In this document: piece by piece, positions 27,299 to 33,237 of the stretch
Numbering within the stretch: the first letter of the stretch is position 1
Layout of the letters: the number at the start of each line of letters is the position of its first letter
Source of the DNA: a virus
Direction: 5' to 3' (one strand)
Length of the DNA stretch: 36,572 bases
IMG/VR virus record: IMGVR_UViG_3300036671_000064
Location: 1-36,572 of that record
Notes under the pieces: generated by a model
The model's input: the letters and a program-made list of their open reading frames with translations, nothing else
What the model was told of the DNA's origin: nothing
The model's database searches: none
Made by a program: the position numbers and the translations under genes

Positions 27299-27329
27299 AG
27301 CGGTATTACGGCTTGCGCAGGCTAATCTC

Positions 27330-27464
27330 ATGCGTCCTGAACCTGGTCTTCGTGTACACAGGGATGGAATTCTTTGCCGCCAAAGTACTCAGCAACTACC
27401 CGTAAAGGATGAAGATCACTTAAAACCTGTGATTTTGCTGTTTGAAAAGACTAAACTAAGGTAA
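27330..27464 (+). CDS. Possible 44-residue basic protein
   Basis: An ATG frame of 44 codons starting MRPEPGLRVHRDGIL and ending FEKTKLR. The composition (Arg/Lys/Glu/Pro) looks like a small phage protein, and no longer frame competes here. The ribosome-binding site is weak (AGG about 10 bases upstream). It follows the GIY-YIG gene by 31 bases on the same strand. No function is recognised and it may be chance. Confidence 0.35.
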   Translation: MRPEPGLRVHRDGILCRQSTQQLPVKDEDHLKPVILLFEKTKLR

Positions 27465-27796: not shown

Positions 27797-28612
27797 ATGA
27801 AAATTAATGACATCTTAACAGAATCGCAACAGCAGGAACTTGAGGAAGGACCTCTTCTTAACAAAATTGGATCAGCTGTGGGCAAAGCTGTAGGTGGAGT
27901 AGCTAGAGGTGTTGGAGCAGTAGCTGGTGGAGTAGCTGGCGCAGCAACAGCTGCCAAACAAGGATTTCAAACGGGGAAAGCTGCTGTGACTGGCAAGCCA
28001 GATCCTAATGCTGTGGCACCTACAACCGCAGCTGGCATCAATACTCAAGGCCCCAAGGGCACAGCAGCAGCAAAAACACAAACAGGCGCAGGAGCACAAG
28101 CACTGCAAAAATCTGTAGCAGCAACATCAAATGCCACTGCTGATCAAGCAGGGCAAACTGTTTACGCTCAAGTCAAGGCAAATATTGACAAGTTAGATAA
28201 GAAAGGCAAACAGCGTATCATGCAGTTGTTGCAGAAATCTGTAGCAACACCTGCACCAAATACTATGGCAAATGCTCCGGTTAGTGCCACCAATGTGGCT
28301 AAGCCAGGCAATCCAAATGCAGTACCTGCTGCAACAGCTCCAGCAGCTACTACAAAACCAGCAACAGCAGCTCCGGGTGCTGATCCAGCAGCAGCATTAA
28401 AAAATAAAAAAGTAGCAGCTAAACCAAAAGCTGGAGCAACTCAAGCTGAGATCGATGCTGATCGTGAACGATTGATGGGTGTGACTAGTGACAGCGTCAT
28501 TAGAACCGGCAATAGTCTAGAAGAAACACTAGCACGTAAAGTTGAAGAACAAAAACGTAAAATGTTTGAAAGCAATCTACGTGCAGGCCGCGCAAGTGTT
28601 TTTGTAAAATGA
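27797..28612 (+). CDS. Ala/Gly-rich late protein with MKINDILTE leader
   Basis: A 271-residue low-complexity protein. It starts MKINDILTES; residues about 22-60 are a Gly/Ala/Val-rich helix (VGKAVGGVARGVGAVAGGV), followed by long Ala/Thr/Pro/Lys stretches. A more regular segment lies near 125-152 (AQVKANIDKLDKKGKQRIMQ), and the C-terminus is charged (EETLARKVEEQKRKMFE). ILTE followed by Ser fits the (L/I)xE cleavage preference of T4-type prohead protease, so it may be a head-core or internal protein trimmed at maturation. That is inferred. The gene has its own late promoter and overlaps the next gene by 4 bases (ATGA). Confidence 0.65.
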   Translation: MKINDILTESQQQELEEGPLLNKIGSAVGKAVGGVARGVGAVAGGVAGAATAAKQGFQTGKAAVTGKPDPNAVAPTTAAGINTQGPKGTAAAKTQTGAGAQALQKSVAATSNATADQAGQTVYAQVKANIDKLDKKGKQRIMQLLQKSVATPAPNTMANAPVSATNVAKPGNPNAVPAATAPAATTKPATAAPGADPAAALKNKKVAAKPKAGATQAEIDADRERLMGVTSDSVIRTGNSLEETLARKVEEQKRKMFESNLRAGRASVFVK

Positions 28613-28920
28613 GAATACAAGATTTAATCAGCGAAGCAGATATAAGCAGGACTGCTGGTCAAGCAACAGGGGAAGTTGGACGAGCTGCCGGATCTGTAGT
28701 AGGCGCCGCAGCTGGCTTGCCTGGAGAATTTGGAAAAGGTGCGCTGAGAGGATGGAACAAAGCCATGGGACGATCAACAGCTAGTTCAAGCTCTAAGCCA
28801 ACTCCGTTTGATTCAATACCGTCCGGCGAACTCAAACAGTTATTAGGCGATGTTGTTAACGGACAAAAATTAAGTCCAACTCAACTACAACAAATTACAA
28901 AGGTATACAACAAACTTTAA
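28609..28920 (+). CDS. Small late protein with MRIQDLISE leader
   Basis: A 103-residue protein starting MRIQDLISEADISRT, clearly similar in its leader to the preceding gene. It then has a Gly/Ala/Val-rich segment (EVGRAAGSVVGAAAGLPGEF) and a C-terminal helical region (SGELKQLLGDVVNGQKLSP). LISE followed by Ala is again a prohead-protease-like site. Overlap with the upstream gene is ATGA. Its TAA at 28918-28920 overlaps the stop of the convergent minus-strand frame (TTAA serves both). Function unknown; a virion internal or core role is inferred. Confidence 0.6.
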   Translation: MRIQDLISEADISRTAGQATGEVGRAAGSVVGAAAGLPGEFGKGALRGWNKAMGRSTASSSSKPTPFDSIPSGELKQLLGDVVNGQKLSPTQLQQITKVYNKL

Positions 28921-29198
28921 AAGAACGGCAGTCCTGTTTTCTTAGTAGTTTCTAAGTTTTCAGAAATTATATCGCCTATGATTTCTCGTTCTTCCCAACT
29001 CATATTCATAACTTCGGCATAGCTCATACTGCCGCGCATGTACCAACAGAGTTTGAGACAGTCTCTTTTAATTGCCTTACCTTCCTTCTCTAATCGATCA
29101 GATTCGCGTAAAATCTCCGGTAAGGAGAGACTTAAGATTTTACGCCGAAAAAATTTGACTGATCCATTGTGACTGGCAAACTGTATTTTTCGTGACAT
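28917..29198 (-). CDS. gp51-like frame downstream of gp26, probably reached by -1 frameshift
   Basis: A 93-codon frame whose first ATG lies 67 bases inside gp26 with no good ribosome-binding site. The protein-like part begins after the gp26 stop: LPEILRESDRLEKEGKAIKR, LKLCWYMRGSMSYAEVMNMS, EREIIGDIISENLETTKKTG. It resembles short gp51-like hub-assembly proteins I recall from aquatic T4-like phages. It is in the -1 frame of gp26, with a slippery heptamer and an 11-pair stem at the junction (29106-29156). A fusion would be 282 gp26 residues plus 77 more, 359 in all. A free start at 29198 is the alternative. Confidence 0.6.
   Translation of the reverse strand: MSRKIQFASHNGSVKFFRRKILSLSLPEILRESDRLEKEGKAIKRDCLKLCWYMRGSMSYAEVMNMSWEEREIIGDIISENLETTKKTGLPFF
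29106..29156 (-). promoter_or_regulatory. Candidate -1 ribosomal frameshift signal (gp26 to downstream frame)
   Basis: On the minus strand the heptamer A AAT TTT (29156-29150, zero-frame spacing) is followed by TTCG and a perfect 11-pair stem: GCGTAAAATCT at 29145-29135 and AGATTTTACGC at 29116-29106, with an 18-base loop. The gp26 stop (29134-29132) opens the loop. A second overlapping slippery site T TTT TTC (29153-29147) is also in phase. The 4-base spacer is shorter than usual (5-9), but the stem could melt by a pair or two. Confidence 0.6.
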
Positions 29199-30066: not shown

Positions 30067-32661
30067 ATGGCTGTTTTTATTGACATACCCGGAATAGGAA
30101 ATGTAGAAGCTAAGAATGCTGCTTCTGAAGCCACCTTGAAAGCTATTCTTGCGGCAATGAAAGGTGGTGGTGGTGGCGGTGGTGGAGGTGGAGGTGGTGG
30201 TGGAGGTGGCGCTCCTCCTGGTGGAGGCGGTGGGGGTGTATTAGGCATAGCCGGAAAAGTTCTTGGAAAATCGTTTGGAATATTAGGAGCTGCTGCTAAC
30301 AGTGCCGGAGCAGGCCTTGGATTTGCTGCTGGAAAACTTGCACAATTTAGCGGGAAGACATTAGATGCTGTTGACACGTTAGCGAACCTAAGTGGATCAG
30401 CAGAATCGGCTGCTAATCTTTTTTCCAAAGTCCCCTTCCTAATAGGTCCTGCATTTAAAATGGTAGCTGCGGCCGCAGATCAGGTGAATAAATCAATGAA
30501 TGCTGCCAGTGCTAGCGGAGCATCATTTGGCGGCAGTGTTATGACATTTTCAAAAGCTGCAAGCGAAGCAGGTATGAACATGGCAGAGTTTGGCAGCTTG
30601 GTCGCAGCAAACGGCGCAGGCATGTTGGCCTTTGGTGGAACTACAGAAGAAGGTGCAAAAAACTTTGCTAAAGTATCAAAAGAATTAAGAGGTGCAAGCT
30701 CTGAACTATACGCATTAGGGTTTTCTACAGCAGACATTAATTCTGGATTGGCTAGCTATGGCGATCTAATGAGACAGCAAGGACTCCAGGGAAAAAAATC
30801 AAATTCAGAATTAGCCTCTGGTGCTAAGTCGTACCTTAAAGAAATGGATTTGCTGTCAAAGGTAACCGGCGAGTCTAGAAAACAAGTAGAAGAGAATGCT
30901 AAAAAATTAGCAGGTGATGCACAGTTTCAAGCATCAATGTCAGGCATGAACGAGGAAGTTAGAAAATCTTTTCAAAGTACTGTATTGGGATTACCTGGAC
31001 CACTACAGAATTTTACCAAAGATATGATGGCAAATGGAGTTGCAACTACAGAAGAAAATCAAAAGTTAATGGCTATGATGCCGCAGTCGGCAGCAATGAT
31101 ACAAAAGATGAATGCTAAAATGCAGCGTGGCGAAGCAGTCACGATGGAAGAACGAAACGCATTGAACAACATGATGAAAGCGGAAGGTGGAAAAAATCTG
31201 CAAAGTATTAAACAAGCAGGAGCTGCTAGTGCAGAATTATCAGGACTAGTAAATGGACTTGCTGCAACACAAACAATTAATGGGGATGCAATTAAAGAAG
31301 CTACTGAAGAACAGAAAAAGGCTGCGGCTAACACTGACGGATTCAACAAGAAGATGCAAGAGTTTCAGTCGCGTATTGCAGCAGTGACTAACACATTCCA
31401 AGGATTACTAGCAACTAGTGGTATACTCGATGTTCTAATGAATGCATTTGATGCAGTTGCTAAACTGGCAAAAGATTATTTGGTGCCAGCGTTTAATATT
31501 GTGTCGTCTATAGTTATGAAAGTAGGCAATGGCATGATGTTGTTGCTTGCTCCAGTTATTGATTACATATCAGAAAAATTTGGCAGCGGTGGACTCGGCG
31601 GAACGCTTGAATTTATTGACGGGCTTATGAATACTGTATTTGATGCAATGGGCGGAGTAGTTAGAGGAGCAATACTGGCCTTTGATGGGCTAATGGTTGG
31701 TGTGCAATCAATAATTGCTCCATTGGGACGATTGTGGGAAATGGTAGCAGGTACTTCAGACAGTACAGGAACTTTTGGAAGTACATTAATAGAAGTTGGA
31801 CAAATCTTAGGAGACGTTTTTAAGGCATTAGGAACAGTTGTGGGATTCTTAATTGACTATGCGGTGCGGCCATTAGTTTATGTATTACAGGCGGTGTTAA
31901 CTCCTCCAATGAAACTGTTAGGATTGATTATTGGTGGAACTATAGAATTTTTTGCAAATCTTGGCTACTACATGGAAAACTTTATGGACATAATGGGCGA
32001 AGTTGGTGATGGCCTAATGCGTTTCCTTAATGTAGTGTCTCTTGGAGCAAAAGGGATGTCAGCAGATGAAGCAAAAACTCGTTCAGAAGAAAGAACAGCC
32101 AATAGGCAAGCAAGAGATATTGAAAAAGACGCTGCAAAAAATAAACAAAAAGATGAATTAGCGCAAGATAATAAACAATTTGCAGAACAAAAAGTTACCT
32201 CTAATAAATTAACTGATCTTGCATCTAAAGAAGCCAAGGCAAAGGAAGCTGCTAATAAAGCAGAAGAAAAGAAACAATCGCTAGTTGATAACAATGCTGG
32301 CCCCGAAGCATTACTAAAACAATTTGCAGGTCAACAAGGCAGTGCGCTAGTTCCAAAAGATCAGCAGGCATCGGCCAAAGCGGATACTGCTAAAAATGCT
32401 ATGGTGGCAGATGCCGATGCAAAGAAAGCAACAGACGCAAAAATGAAAAAAGAAGCCGAAGATAAACAAAAATCTGAAGAAAAAACCAAACAAGAAGAAG
32501 CAGGGAAAAAGCAGGCACCGGCCCAAGAATCTGCAGAATCACTGCTTGCACAGTTAAATACTAATATGACAAAATTGATTCAAATCAATCAAGAACAAAA
32601 AACTCTGAGTGAACAGCAATTAAGTGGAATCAAAGGTATGACTGGCAACTTATATGCTTAA
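30067..32661 (+). CDS. Probable tail tape measure protein (gp29-type)
   Basis: An 864-residue, mostly helical protein. It has a poly-Gly run at residues 33-57, an Ala/Gly-rich region up to about 200, hydrophobic helices at about 455-640 (YLVPAFNIVSSIVMKVGNGM; VRGAILAFDGLMVGVQSIIA; LGTVVGFLIDYAVRPLVYVL), then a highly charged coiled coil rich in Lys/Glu/Ala (about 670-825) and an amphipathic C-terminus. This is the usual build of a tape measure protein, which sets tail length and enters the host membrane. Placement beside gp26 and before the portal agrees. T4 gp29 is 590 residues, so a longer tail would be expected. No sequence motif fixes the family, so the call rests on architecture and context. 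Confidence 0.68.
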   Translation: MAVFIDIPGIGNVEAKNAASEATLKAILAAMKGGGGGGGGGGGGGGGGAPPGGGGGGVLGIAGKVLGKSFGILGAAANSAGAGLGFAAGKLAQFSGKTLDAVDTLANLSGSAESAANLFSKVPFLIGPAFKMVAAAADQVNKSMNAASASGASFGGSVMTFSKAASEAGMNMAEFGSLVAANGAGMLAFGGTTEEGAKNFAKVSKELRGASSELYALGFSTADINSGLASYGDLMRQQGLQGKKSNSELASGAKSYLKEMDLLSKVTGESRKQVEENAKKLAGDAQFQASMSGMNEEVRKSFQSTVLGLPGPLQNFTKDMMANGVATTEENQKLMAMMPQSAAMIQKMNAKMQRGEAVTMEERNALNNMMKAEGGKNLQSIKQAGAASAELSGLVNGLAATQTINGDAIKEATEEQKKAAANTDGFNKKMQEFQSRIAAVTNTFQGLLATSGILDVLMNAFDAVAKLAKDYLVPAFNIVSSIVMKVGNGMMLLLAPVIDYISEKFGSGGLGGTLEFIDGLMNTVFDAMGGVVRGAILAFDGLMVGVQSIIAPLGRLWEMVAGTSDSTGTFGSTLIEVGQILGDVFKALGTVVGFLIDYAVRPLVYVLQAVLTPPMKLLGLIIGGTIEFFANLGYYMENFMDIMGEVGDGLMRFLNVVSLGAKGMSADEAKTRSEERTANRQARDIEKDAAKNKQKDELAQDNKQFAEQKVTSNKLTDLASKEAKAKEAANKAEEKKQSLVDNNAGPEALLKQFAGQQGSALVPKDQQASAKADTAKNAMVADADAKKATDAKMKKEAEDKQKSEEKTKQEEAGKKQAPAQESAESLLAQLNTNMTKLIQINQEQKTLSEQQLSGIKGMTGNLYA
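30163..30237 (+). repeat. GGN trinucleotide tract encoding poly-Gly
   Basis: Sixteen consecutive Gly codons (30163-30210, mostly GGT with some GGA and GGC) are followed by Ala-Pro-Pro and six more Gly codons (30220-30237). The mix of synonymous codons shows it is kept at protein level, yet the tract could still expand or contract by slippage. Confidence 0.9.
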
Positions 32662-32670
32662 GGATAATAC

Positions 32671-33237
32671 ATGAGTTGTAAAAATTTTTATGTTTATCGA
32701 TATAATAACGAGGATGGTACTCCTTTTTATATCGGTAAGGGTAGTAAAAATAGAATTAACGAAAGTCATGCTCCATGGATTATAATCCCATCTATTGAAT
32801 TTAGAGAAATTATTACAGATAATCTTACTGAACAAGATGCATTTAACTTAGAATTAAAGTTAATTCATTATTATAAAAGAAAAATAGATGGCGGCATCTT
32901 AGAAAATTTAAAAATTACTAGATGGGTAGCACAAGCAGGATGGAAACATTCTGAAGAAACGAAAAAACAAATATCGCAAAAGAACACTGGAAAAGTTAGA
33001 ACAGCAGAACAAAAAGAAAACTATAAAAAATCTAAAACAGCTCAACATGCTGAAAAGATCAAACAAGCAAATTTAGGAAGAGTAGATGATGGTCGAGCTG
33101 TTAAAATATCACAAACAATGAAAAATAAGAAATGGTTTACTAACGGAATTACTTGTGTATTTTGCGAAATAGATTTTCAACCTCTAGGATTTAAACCTGG
33201 AAGGATAATAAGGAAAAAAGAATATGAGCTGGCGTAA
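32671..33237 (+). CDS. GIY-YIG homing endonuclease with NUMOD3 motifs
   Basis: A 188-residue free-standing homing endonuclease. The catalytic GIY-YIG core is NFYVYRYNNEDGTPFYIGKG (residues 5-24) with Arg28 following. Around residues 90-145 come NUMOD3-type DNA-binding repeats (AGWKHSEETKKQISQKNTGK; IKQANLGR). The C-terminal WFTNGI and GFKPGR are also typical of these nucleases. By eye it is more AT-rich than its neighbours and rich in Lys/Asn, as expected for a mobile gene. It sits between the tape measure and portal genes, 9 bases after the former, and overlaps the portal start by 14 bases. It probably cuts an endonuclease-free allele of this junction. Confidence 0.85.
   Translation: MSCKNFYVYRYNNEDGTPFYIGKGSKNRINESHAPWIIIPSIEFREIITDNLTEQDAFNLELKLIHYYKRKIDGGILENLKITRWVAQAGWKHSEETKKQISQKNTGKVRTAEQKENYKKSKTAQHAEKIKQANLGRVDDGRAVKISQTMKNKKWFTNGITCVFCEIDFQPLGFKPGRIIRKKEYELA

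Follow-up and report, generated by a model that had tools for sequence, protein, structure and literature searches.

A conserved T_TTT_TTC heptamer at the end of gp26 and a predicted -1 frameshift in the tail assembly chaperone locus of T4-like phages

The virus record IMGVR_UViG_3300036671_000064 carries, on the minus strand of a 36.6-kb window (the whole stretch of DNA analysed here), a gene of the gp26 family of T4-like phages which ends in a run of T, and beyond its stop codon the -1 frame remains open. This raises the question whether the two frames are separate genes, or whether a fraction of the ribosomes passes from one to the other, as happens in the production of the tail chaperones gpG and gpGT of phage lambda. 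The original prediction for this locus, made from the letters of the window alone, was a -1 frameshift producing a G/GT-type chaperone from a gp26/gp51 pair; this is supported by the comparison with related phages described below, and agrees with a published result as far as that is set out in the accessible parts of the literature. We consider it very probable, from the conservation of the junction, that this is the tail assembly chaperone (TAC) locus of a T4-like myophage, where a -1 slip would yield both a short TAC-N protein and a fused TAC-NC protein of 359 aa. The source phage was probably large and aquatic.

Layout of the gp26 locus

The features of the locus are listed in Table 1. The TAC-N protein matches the Pfam family PF12322 (T4_baseplate, E 2.6e-17) and PHROG 150, the gp26/gp51 family (E 2.2e-21). 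The 3′ end of its gene reads ATG GAT CAG TCA AAT TTT TTC GGC GTA AAA TCT TAA on the minus strand, with the TAA stop codon at 29134-29132, and the slippery run A AAT TTT TTC that had been predicted there is thus seen directly in the right phase, and its T run is conserved in relatives. Since the -1 frame is open through to 28917, the predicted fusion joins 283 and 76 residues, with the junction peptide DQSNFFRRK, which is identical whether the slip takes place at A_AAT_TTT or at T_TTT_TTC; recomputation returned the same length and junction as given originally.

Table 1. Features of the gp26 locus, in positions of the window
Feature	Position	Strand	Details
gp26-family ORF, predicted tail assembly chaperone short form (TAC-N)	29995-29132	-	287 aa; PF12322, PHROG 150
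Slip heptamer T_TTT_TTC, gp26 phase	29153-29147	-	In phase in 81/81 and 160/160 contig rows and in isolates
Overlapping heptamer A_AAT_TTT, clade-specific	29156-29150	-	79/81 rows of close set; AAT in 60/80 of wider set
Stem 1 hairpin, GCGTAAAATCT/AGATTTTACGC	29145-29106	-	11 bp; 18-nt loop holding the gp26 stop
Probable pseudoknot stem 2, 5′ strand CCTTACC	29125-29119	-	Inside hairpin loop; folding and comparative pairing tests
Probable pseudoknot stem 2, 3′ strand GGTAAGG	29081-29075	-	Permutation test and tree-disjoint pairs
Putative TAC-C domain, -1 frame after slip (FFRRKILSLS...GLPFF)	29153-28917	-	78 aa from slip site
T4-type late promoter-like box TATAAATA	30040-30033	-	38 nt upstream of gp26
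Tape measure candidate, divergent from gp26	30067-32661	+	864 aa; weak similarity to Phosso protein

The sequence TATAAATA upstream of gp26 looks like a T4-type late promoter. It is present in a single copy in the window, against 4.2 copies expected by chance. Of 61 relatives, 47 carry a copy within 120 nt upstream of gp26, most often 38-45 nt ahead of the start. The divergent neighbour of gp26 is probably the tape measure gene, as had been proposed: a divergent ORF of at least 300 aa (or cut by the contig end) adjoins gp26 in 61/61 relatives, with its identity coming from a weak similarity of the window's protein to the protein adjoining gp26 in phage Phosso (E 6e-7, a score which Gly-rich stretches may inflate).

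Several other features were observed in the window. A Polynucleobacter-1 RNA (RF01718) at 27310-27443 (+) scored 97.3 bits in Rfam (gathering threshold 37), a strong match, and its presence in a T4-like phage may be a clue to the host, or to this RNA family having originated in phages. The adjacent ORFs at 27797-28612 and 28609-28920 (+) start with MKINDILTE and MRIQDLISE, which we take to resemble the short capsid-targeting leaders of T4 internal head proteins, ending in the L/I-x-E prohead protease site, and these ORFs may encode packaged head proteins. An ORF similar to homing endonucleases (PHROG 314, weak NUMOD3) at 32671-33237 (+) has the probable tape measure gene on one side and the portal gene on the other.

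Conservation of the slip heptamer and of the downstream structure

We compared the junction in a close set of 80 IMG/VR relatives (57-87% identical, 81 rows counted), and in two wider sets, consisting of 80 rows at 43-75% identity (with some contigs already in the close set) and 80 rows of P-SSM2-like cyanophages. The heptamer T_TTT_TTC was present in the gp26 phase in every row of all three. In all 80 relatives of the close set the C domain lies in the exact -1 frame, with the gp26 stop located 16, 19 or 25 nt from the start of the heptamer, and in the window's clade this domain has a length of 77 or 78 codons. T_TTT_TTC is also kept in isolates with only 27-36% identity (Phosso, Atu_ph07, MIJ3, XaC1, Munch, RaK2, Vibrio 2.275.O and 121Q) and was detected in P-SSM2, S-PM2, phiW-14 and KVP40, giving 12 isolates altogether, while phiM12 and HTVC008M have T_TTT_TTT, a run of seven T.

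Among 116 non-redundant relatives, which share ancestry and hence do not represent 116 independent trials, the slip codons were TTT in 116/116 and TTC in 116/116 with zero synonymous variation, compared with 82% TTT and 18% TTC in a nearby upstream Phe column of the same relatives. This pattern indicates that selection acts on the heptamer over and above its coding for amino acids. As TTTTTTC is common in the window (18 copies, 16.5 expected) and the hairpin taken alone is only moderately unusual (z -2.2), neither is decisive by itself, and it is the conservation that excludes chance. Alignment of the junctions of relatives, which had been suggested as a check together with the original prediction, therefore found a conserved heptamer, in the form of T_TTT_TTC, and a covarying stem, and no relative examined had a conserved separate start for the downstream frame or lacked the T run.

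Downstream of the heptamer, the 5′ arm GCGTAAAATCT (29145-29135) shows perfect 11-bp pairing with AGATTTTACGC (29116-29106), and the gp26 stop forms the first bases of the 18-nt loop. The predicted stem is thus correct in its pairing and its loop, with the proviso that the 4-base gap given for it is true only when counted from A_AAT_TTT. Stem 1 has a 9-bp core in common with relatives, which was 89% paired across 55 distinct junctions, with pairing falling clearly when the register was slid, and which contained 30 double-changed cells, compared with 8.7 in shuffled alignments (0/500 shuffles as high). The best pair joins the synonymous third positions of a Lys codon (AAA/AAG) and an Ile codon (ATT/ATC), and was Watson-Crick in 54/55 junctions; its 5′ base changed approximately 10 times on the N-domain tree, and the supported branches contained 4 independent pairs, nearly all in the same direction and too few for significance. 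Stem 1 was weak or absent at the window's position in three relatives (L029, L032 and L076), and 14 of the 55 junctions retained only 5 or 6 of the 9 core pairs. Overall, the alignment indicates a downstream structure kept by compensatory change. A search of Rfam gave no frameshift element at the junction.

Folding of the downstream stretch paired CCTTACC in the hairpin loop with GGTAAGG, located 24 nt past the hairpin, and matched changes in this second stem were found in L008 (CCTTGCC/GGCAAGG), in L056 (TCCGTGCC/GGCACGGA), and in L063, L070 and L075 (TCTCGG/CCGAGA). The register of stem 2 slides between relatives, and a column-wise scan consequently gave only about 70% pairing, so that a register-tolerant test was needed. 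The native pairing score was 16.1, against 13.4 (sd 0.36) when loops and downstream parts were permuted between relatives (0/5000), and tree-disjoint pairs of relatives keeping stem 1 were 16 for and 4 against the native stem 2 (median p 0.012), although these p values are soft, as one control register reached a nominal p of 0.03. Over all rows and with no fixed register, the comparison was not significant (about 22 to 13). We therefore regard an H-type pseudoknot between the loop of stem 1 and the downstream strand as probable, with moderate support that falls short of proof. The plain hairpin that was originally predicted stands as stem 1, which covaries, but the stimulator is probably a pseudoknot of which stem 2 had been missed.

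Alternative readings of the junction and the proposed mechanism

The -1 ORF could be a separate gene with its own start, reached by re-initiation or coupling close to the stop of gp26. Public annotations do list downstream ORFs in Phosso, 121Q (gene 595), KVP40 and P-SSM2 (gp51), and an ATG of the -1 frame occurs at 29198 in the window. This is the sole upstream ATG of the ORF, but it is not conserved in relatives, among which no conserved start codon (ATG, GTG or TTG) was found either upstream or downstream, as fits the earlier statement that the next frame is exactly -1 and without a convincing start. The residues of the -1 frame before the slip are not conserved, with conservation beginning at the FFR of the slip site itself, while own initiation would not require an invariant TTT TTC in gp26, and in T4 gp51 the equivalent domain is fused to a TAC-N domain. 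We consider a separate gene exceedingly improbable, and rejected an independent cistron as it is without a conserved start. An indel from assembly or sequencing that split one gene is conceivable in any single contig, but was rejected as a practically negligible explanation, since numerous independent contigs, as well as the genomes of isolates, have the same arrangement. Transcriptional slippage on the six-T run, which would give mixed mRNAs and a fusion made at transcription, is compatible with the run being kept in all contig rows and extended to seven in phiM12 and HTVC008M. However, the contig rows always close the run with C after six, even though TTT would be synonymous, and the covarying stem that closely follows the run is a usual companion of ribosomal shifting. 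Transcriptional slippage also usually requires longer runs, and we hold it to be very unlikely here.

The frameshift could also take place mainly at the overlapping A_AAT_TTT, the heptamer named in the original prediction, with T_TTT_TTC being kept for other reasons. In the window's clade, the core of stem 1 begins 6 nt after A_AAT_TTT (4 nt for the full 11-bp stem of the window), compared with 3 nt (1 nt for the full stem) after T_TTT_TTC, where the usual spacer between heptamer and structure is 5-9 nt, with other lengths also existing (PMC5009743). Such a spacing is ordinary for A_AAT_TTT, and Asn codons preceding the T run are AAT in 100/100 cases and never AAC. Against this, A_AAT_TTT is absent in two relatives of the close set (L047 and L075) and in 20 of the 80 wider relatives, where the codon before the T run is AAT in 60, GAT in 11, AGT in 8 and ACT in 1, and it is present in none of the isolates, with T_TTT_TTC always kept in these contigs and the T run retained in the isolates. 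T_TTT_TTC is thus the general slip site, and A_AAT_TTT was rejected for that role; a shift mainly at A_AAT_TTT in the window appears unlikely. Among the isolates and the relatives that lack AAT, most of the best stems start 5-8 nt after T_TTT_TTC, and given the short stem spacing in the presence of AAT, A_AAT_TTT may be a clade-specific addition, with the association between AAT and a short spacer being suggestive and uncorrected for ancestry.

The reading that we prefer is ribosomal slippage at T_TTT_TTC. The slip site, the frame relation, the co-conserved C domain and the covarying stem 1 emerge from the comparison of genomes, and from these we infer slippage by the ribosome at this site, its efficiency and the effect of the stimulator. 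Most ribosomes would reach the gp26 stop and release the 287-aa TAC-N, while a minority would be slowed by the downstream stem, probably as an H-type pseudoknot with the gp26 stop in its loop. On U_UUU_UUC, two Phe-tRNAs would re-pair from UUU-UUC to UUU-UUU, and the slipped ribosomes would read on in the -1 frame to make the 359-aa TAC-NC fusion. Both products are predicted to function as chaperones, a role in which they would be absent from the virion. By analogy with gpG and gpGT of lambda, a large number of TAC-N and a small number of TAC-NC molecules would cover the tape measure protein and bring in subunits of the tail tube.

Both Atu_ph07 and MIJ3 keep T_TTT_TTC, but the stems that follow 6 nt later are unrelated (Atu_ph07 has GGCTCTTTGT/ACAAAGAGCC, MIJ3 a stem of 11 bp), which suggests that phages exchange the stimulator more readily than the slip site. 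A wider scheme, which we offer tentatively as a possibility that is rather doubtful as a whole, would have T_TTT_TTC as ancient and fixed across most T4-like phages, with the stimulator rebuilt per lineage, such that Atu_ph07, MIJ3, the cyanophages and the window's clade differ. In this last clade, an H-type pseudoknot over the gp26 stop, with its stem about 3 nt further upstream and with the gained A_AAT_TTT, would provide two overlapping sites setting the TAC-N:TAC-NC ratio.

Protein homology and comparison with known systems

PF12322 is matched by T4 gp26 as well as by residues 1-201 of T4 gp51, which carries an extra C-terminal part beyond this region. The end of PHROG 150 that is specific to gp51 has its match in a separate ORF directly following gp26 in P-SSM2, S-PM2, HTVC008M and phiM12, and the ORF in this position is labelled gp51 or hub assembly catalyst in the records of P-SSM2, HTVC008M and KVP40. 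Comparison of profiles by hhalign linked the C domain of the window's clade to Straboviridae gp51 C-termini with a probability of 79.7 (single-comparison E 1.5e-5) and to the combined set with 74.7, but to the set of cyanophages, KVP40, phiM12 and phiW-14 alone with only 2.3, and thus homology to the C-terminus of T4 gp51 is likely on moderate evidence, and not proven. The cyanophage set itself matches T4 gp51 at 97%; the gene order is the same, and there is a common S..E.M...ER motif. The label gp51 in the original prediction fits the C-terminal piece of T4 gp51 and not the whole gene. A Pfam search of the -1 domain found nothing credible, and a fold search of the predicted TAC-N model (mean pLDDT 83.6) against the PDB gave no match and was uninformative. 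TAC-N also has two CxxC pairs (C117/C120 and C264/C267) that are invariant across 36 sequences of one alignment, and these may form a metal site in a chaperone.

The T4 genes 26 and 51 are both full-length and divergent, with TTTTTTC at neither equivalent junction, and simple synteny with T4 26-51 was rejected on the grounds of this divergence, even though both are PF12322 proteins. In Atu_ph07, MIJ3 and RaK2, the C domain is open and unannotated across the slip site in public records, which consequently lack the fusion protein. Across the T4-like genomes inspected, annotations give the fusion form of the chaperone as a separate ORF or a hypothetical one, or leave it out altogether.

Frameshifting reportedly appears conserved in several T4-like groups according to Vladimirov and colleagues, with the T4 group using genes 26 and 51. 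The accessible texts of PMC12846349 and PMC10885494 credit Vladimirov, Gautam and Davidson 2022 (Virology 566:9, doi 10.1016/j.virol.2021.11.003) with identifying the T4-like chaperone genes, and state, citing that study, that poly-T slip signals are found in the TAC-N genes of T4-like phages (PMC12846349) and that certain T4-like phages, in place of frameshifting, have one short and one fused gene (PMC10885494). As this kind of locus was, by these accounts, already reported for T4-like phages in 2022, the window is a further example and the idea is not new; what is added is support for a published, computational proposal from many metagenomic and isolate genomes, with the conserved heptamer named, and a stem and probable pseudoknot. 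Our literature search found nothing on the window's particular clade. Several details may be new, as they were not found described in the accessible parts of the sources: the nearly universal presence of T_TTT_TTC, the covarying stem whose loop contains the stop codon, the overlapping heptamer specific to the clade, and the probable pseudoknot.

The slip site of phage lambda is G_GGA_AAG. Its gpG/gpGT, the textbook frameshifted tail chaperone pair (PMC5009743), belongs to a different protein family by the searches made, whereas for the window the predicted slip is at T_TTT_TTC, followed by a stem that covaries and a probable pseudoknot. The TAC genes of the Vandenendeviridae and Andersonviridae, which are other phage families, are also described with a -1 frameshift at a conserved poly-T motif (GTTTTT), with a structural stimulator not being mentioned in the accessible part of that report (PMC12846349). 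T4-like TACs have the PF12322 domain in common with the window, and in several groups the C domain is made by a -1 shift, as far as the available accounts go. Compared with T4, the window's TAC-C is longer (77-78 aa versus about 50) and its chaperone gene and the probable tape measure gene point away from each other. As T4 gp26 and gp51 share a domain, and gp51 has a tail like TAC-C, T4 uses two genes and not a slip for the same two products, and the contrast is a clear example from nature of two genes taking the place of a programmed frameshift.
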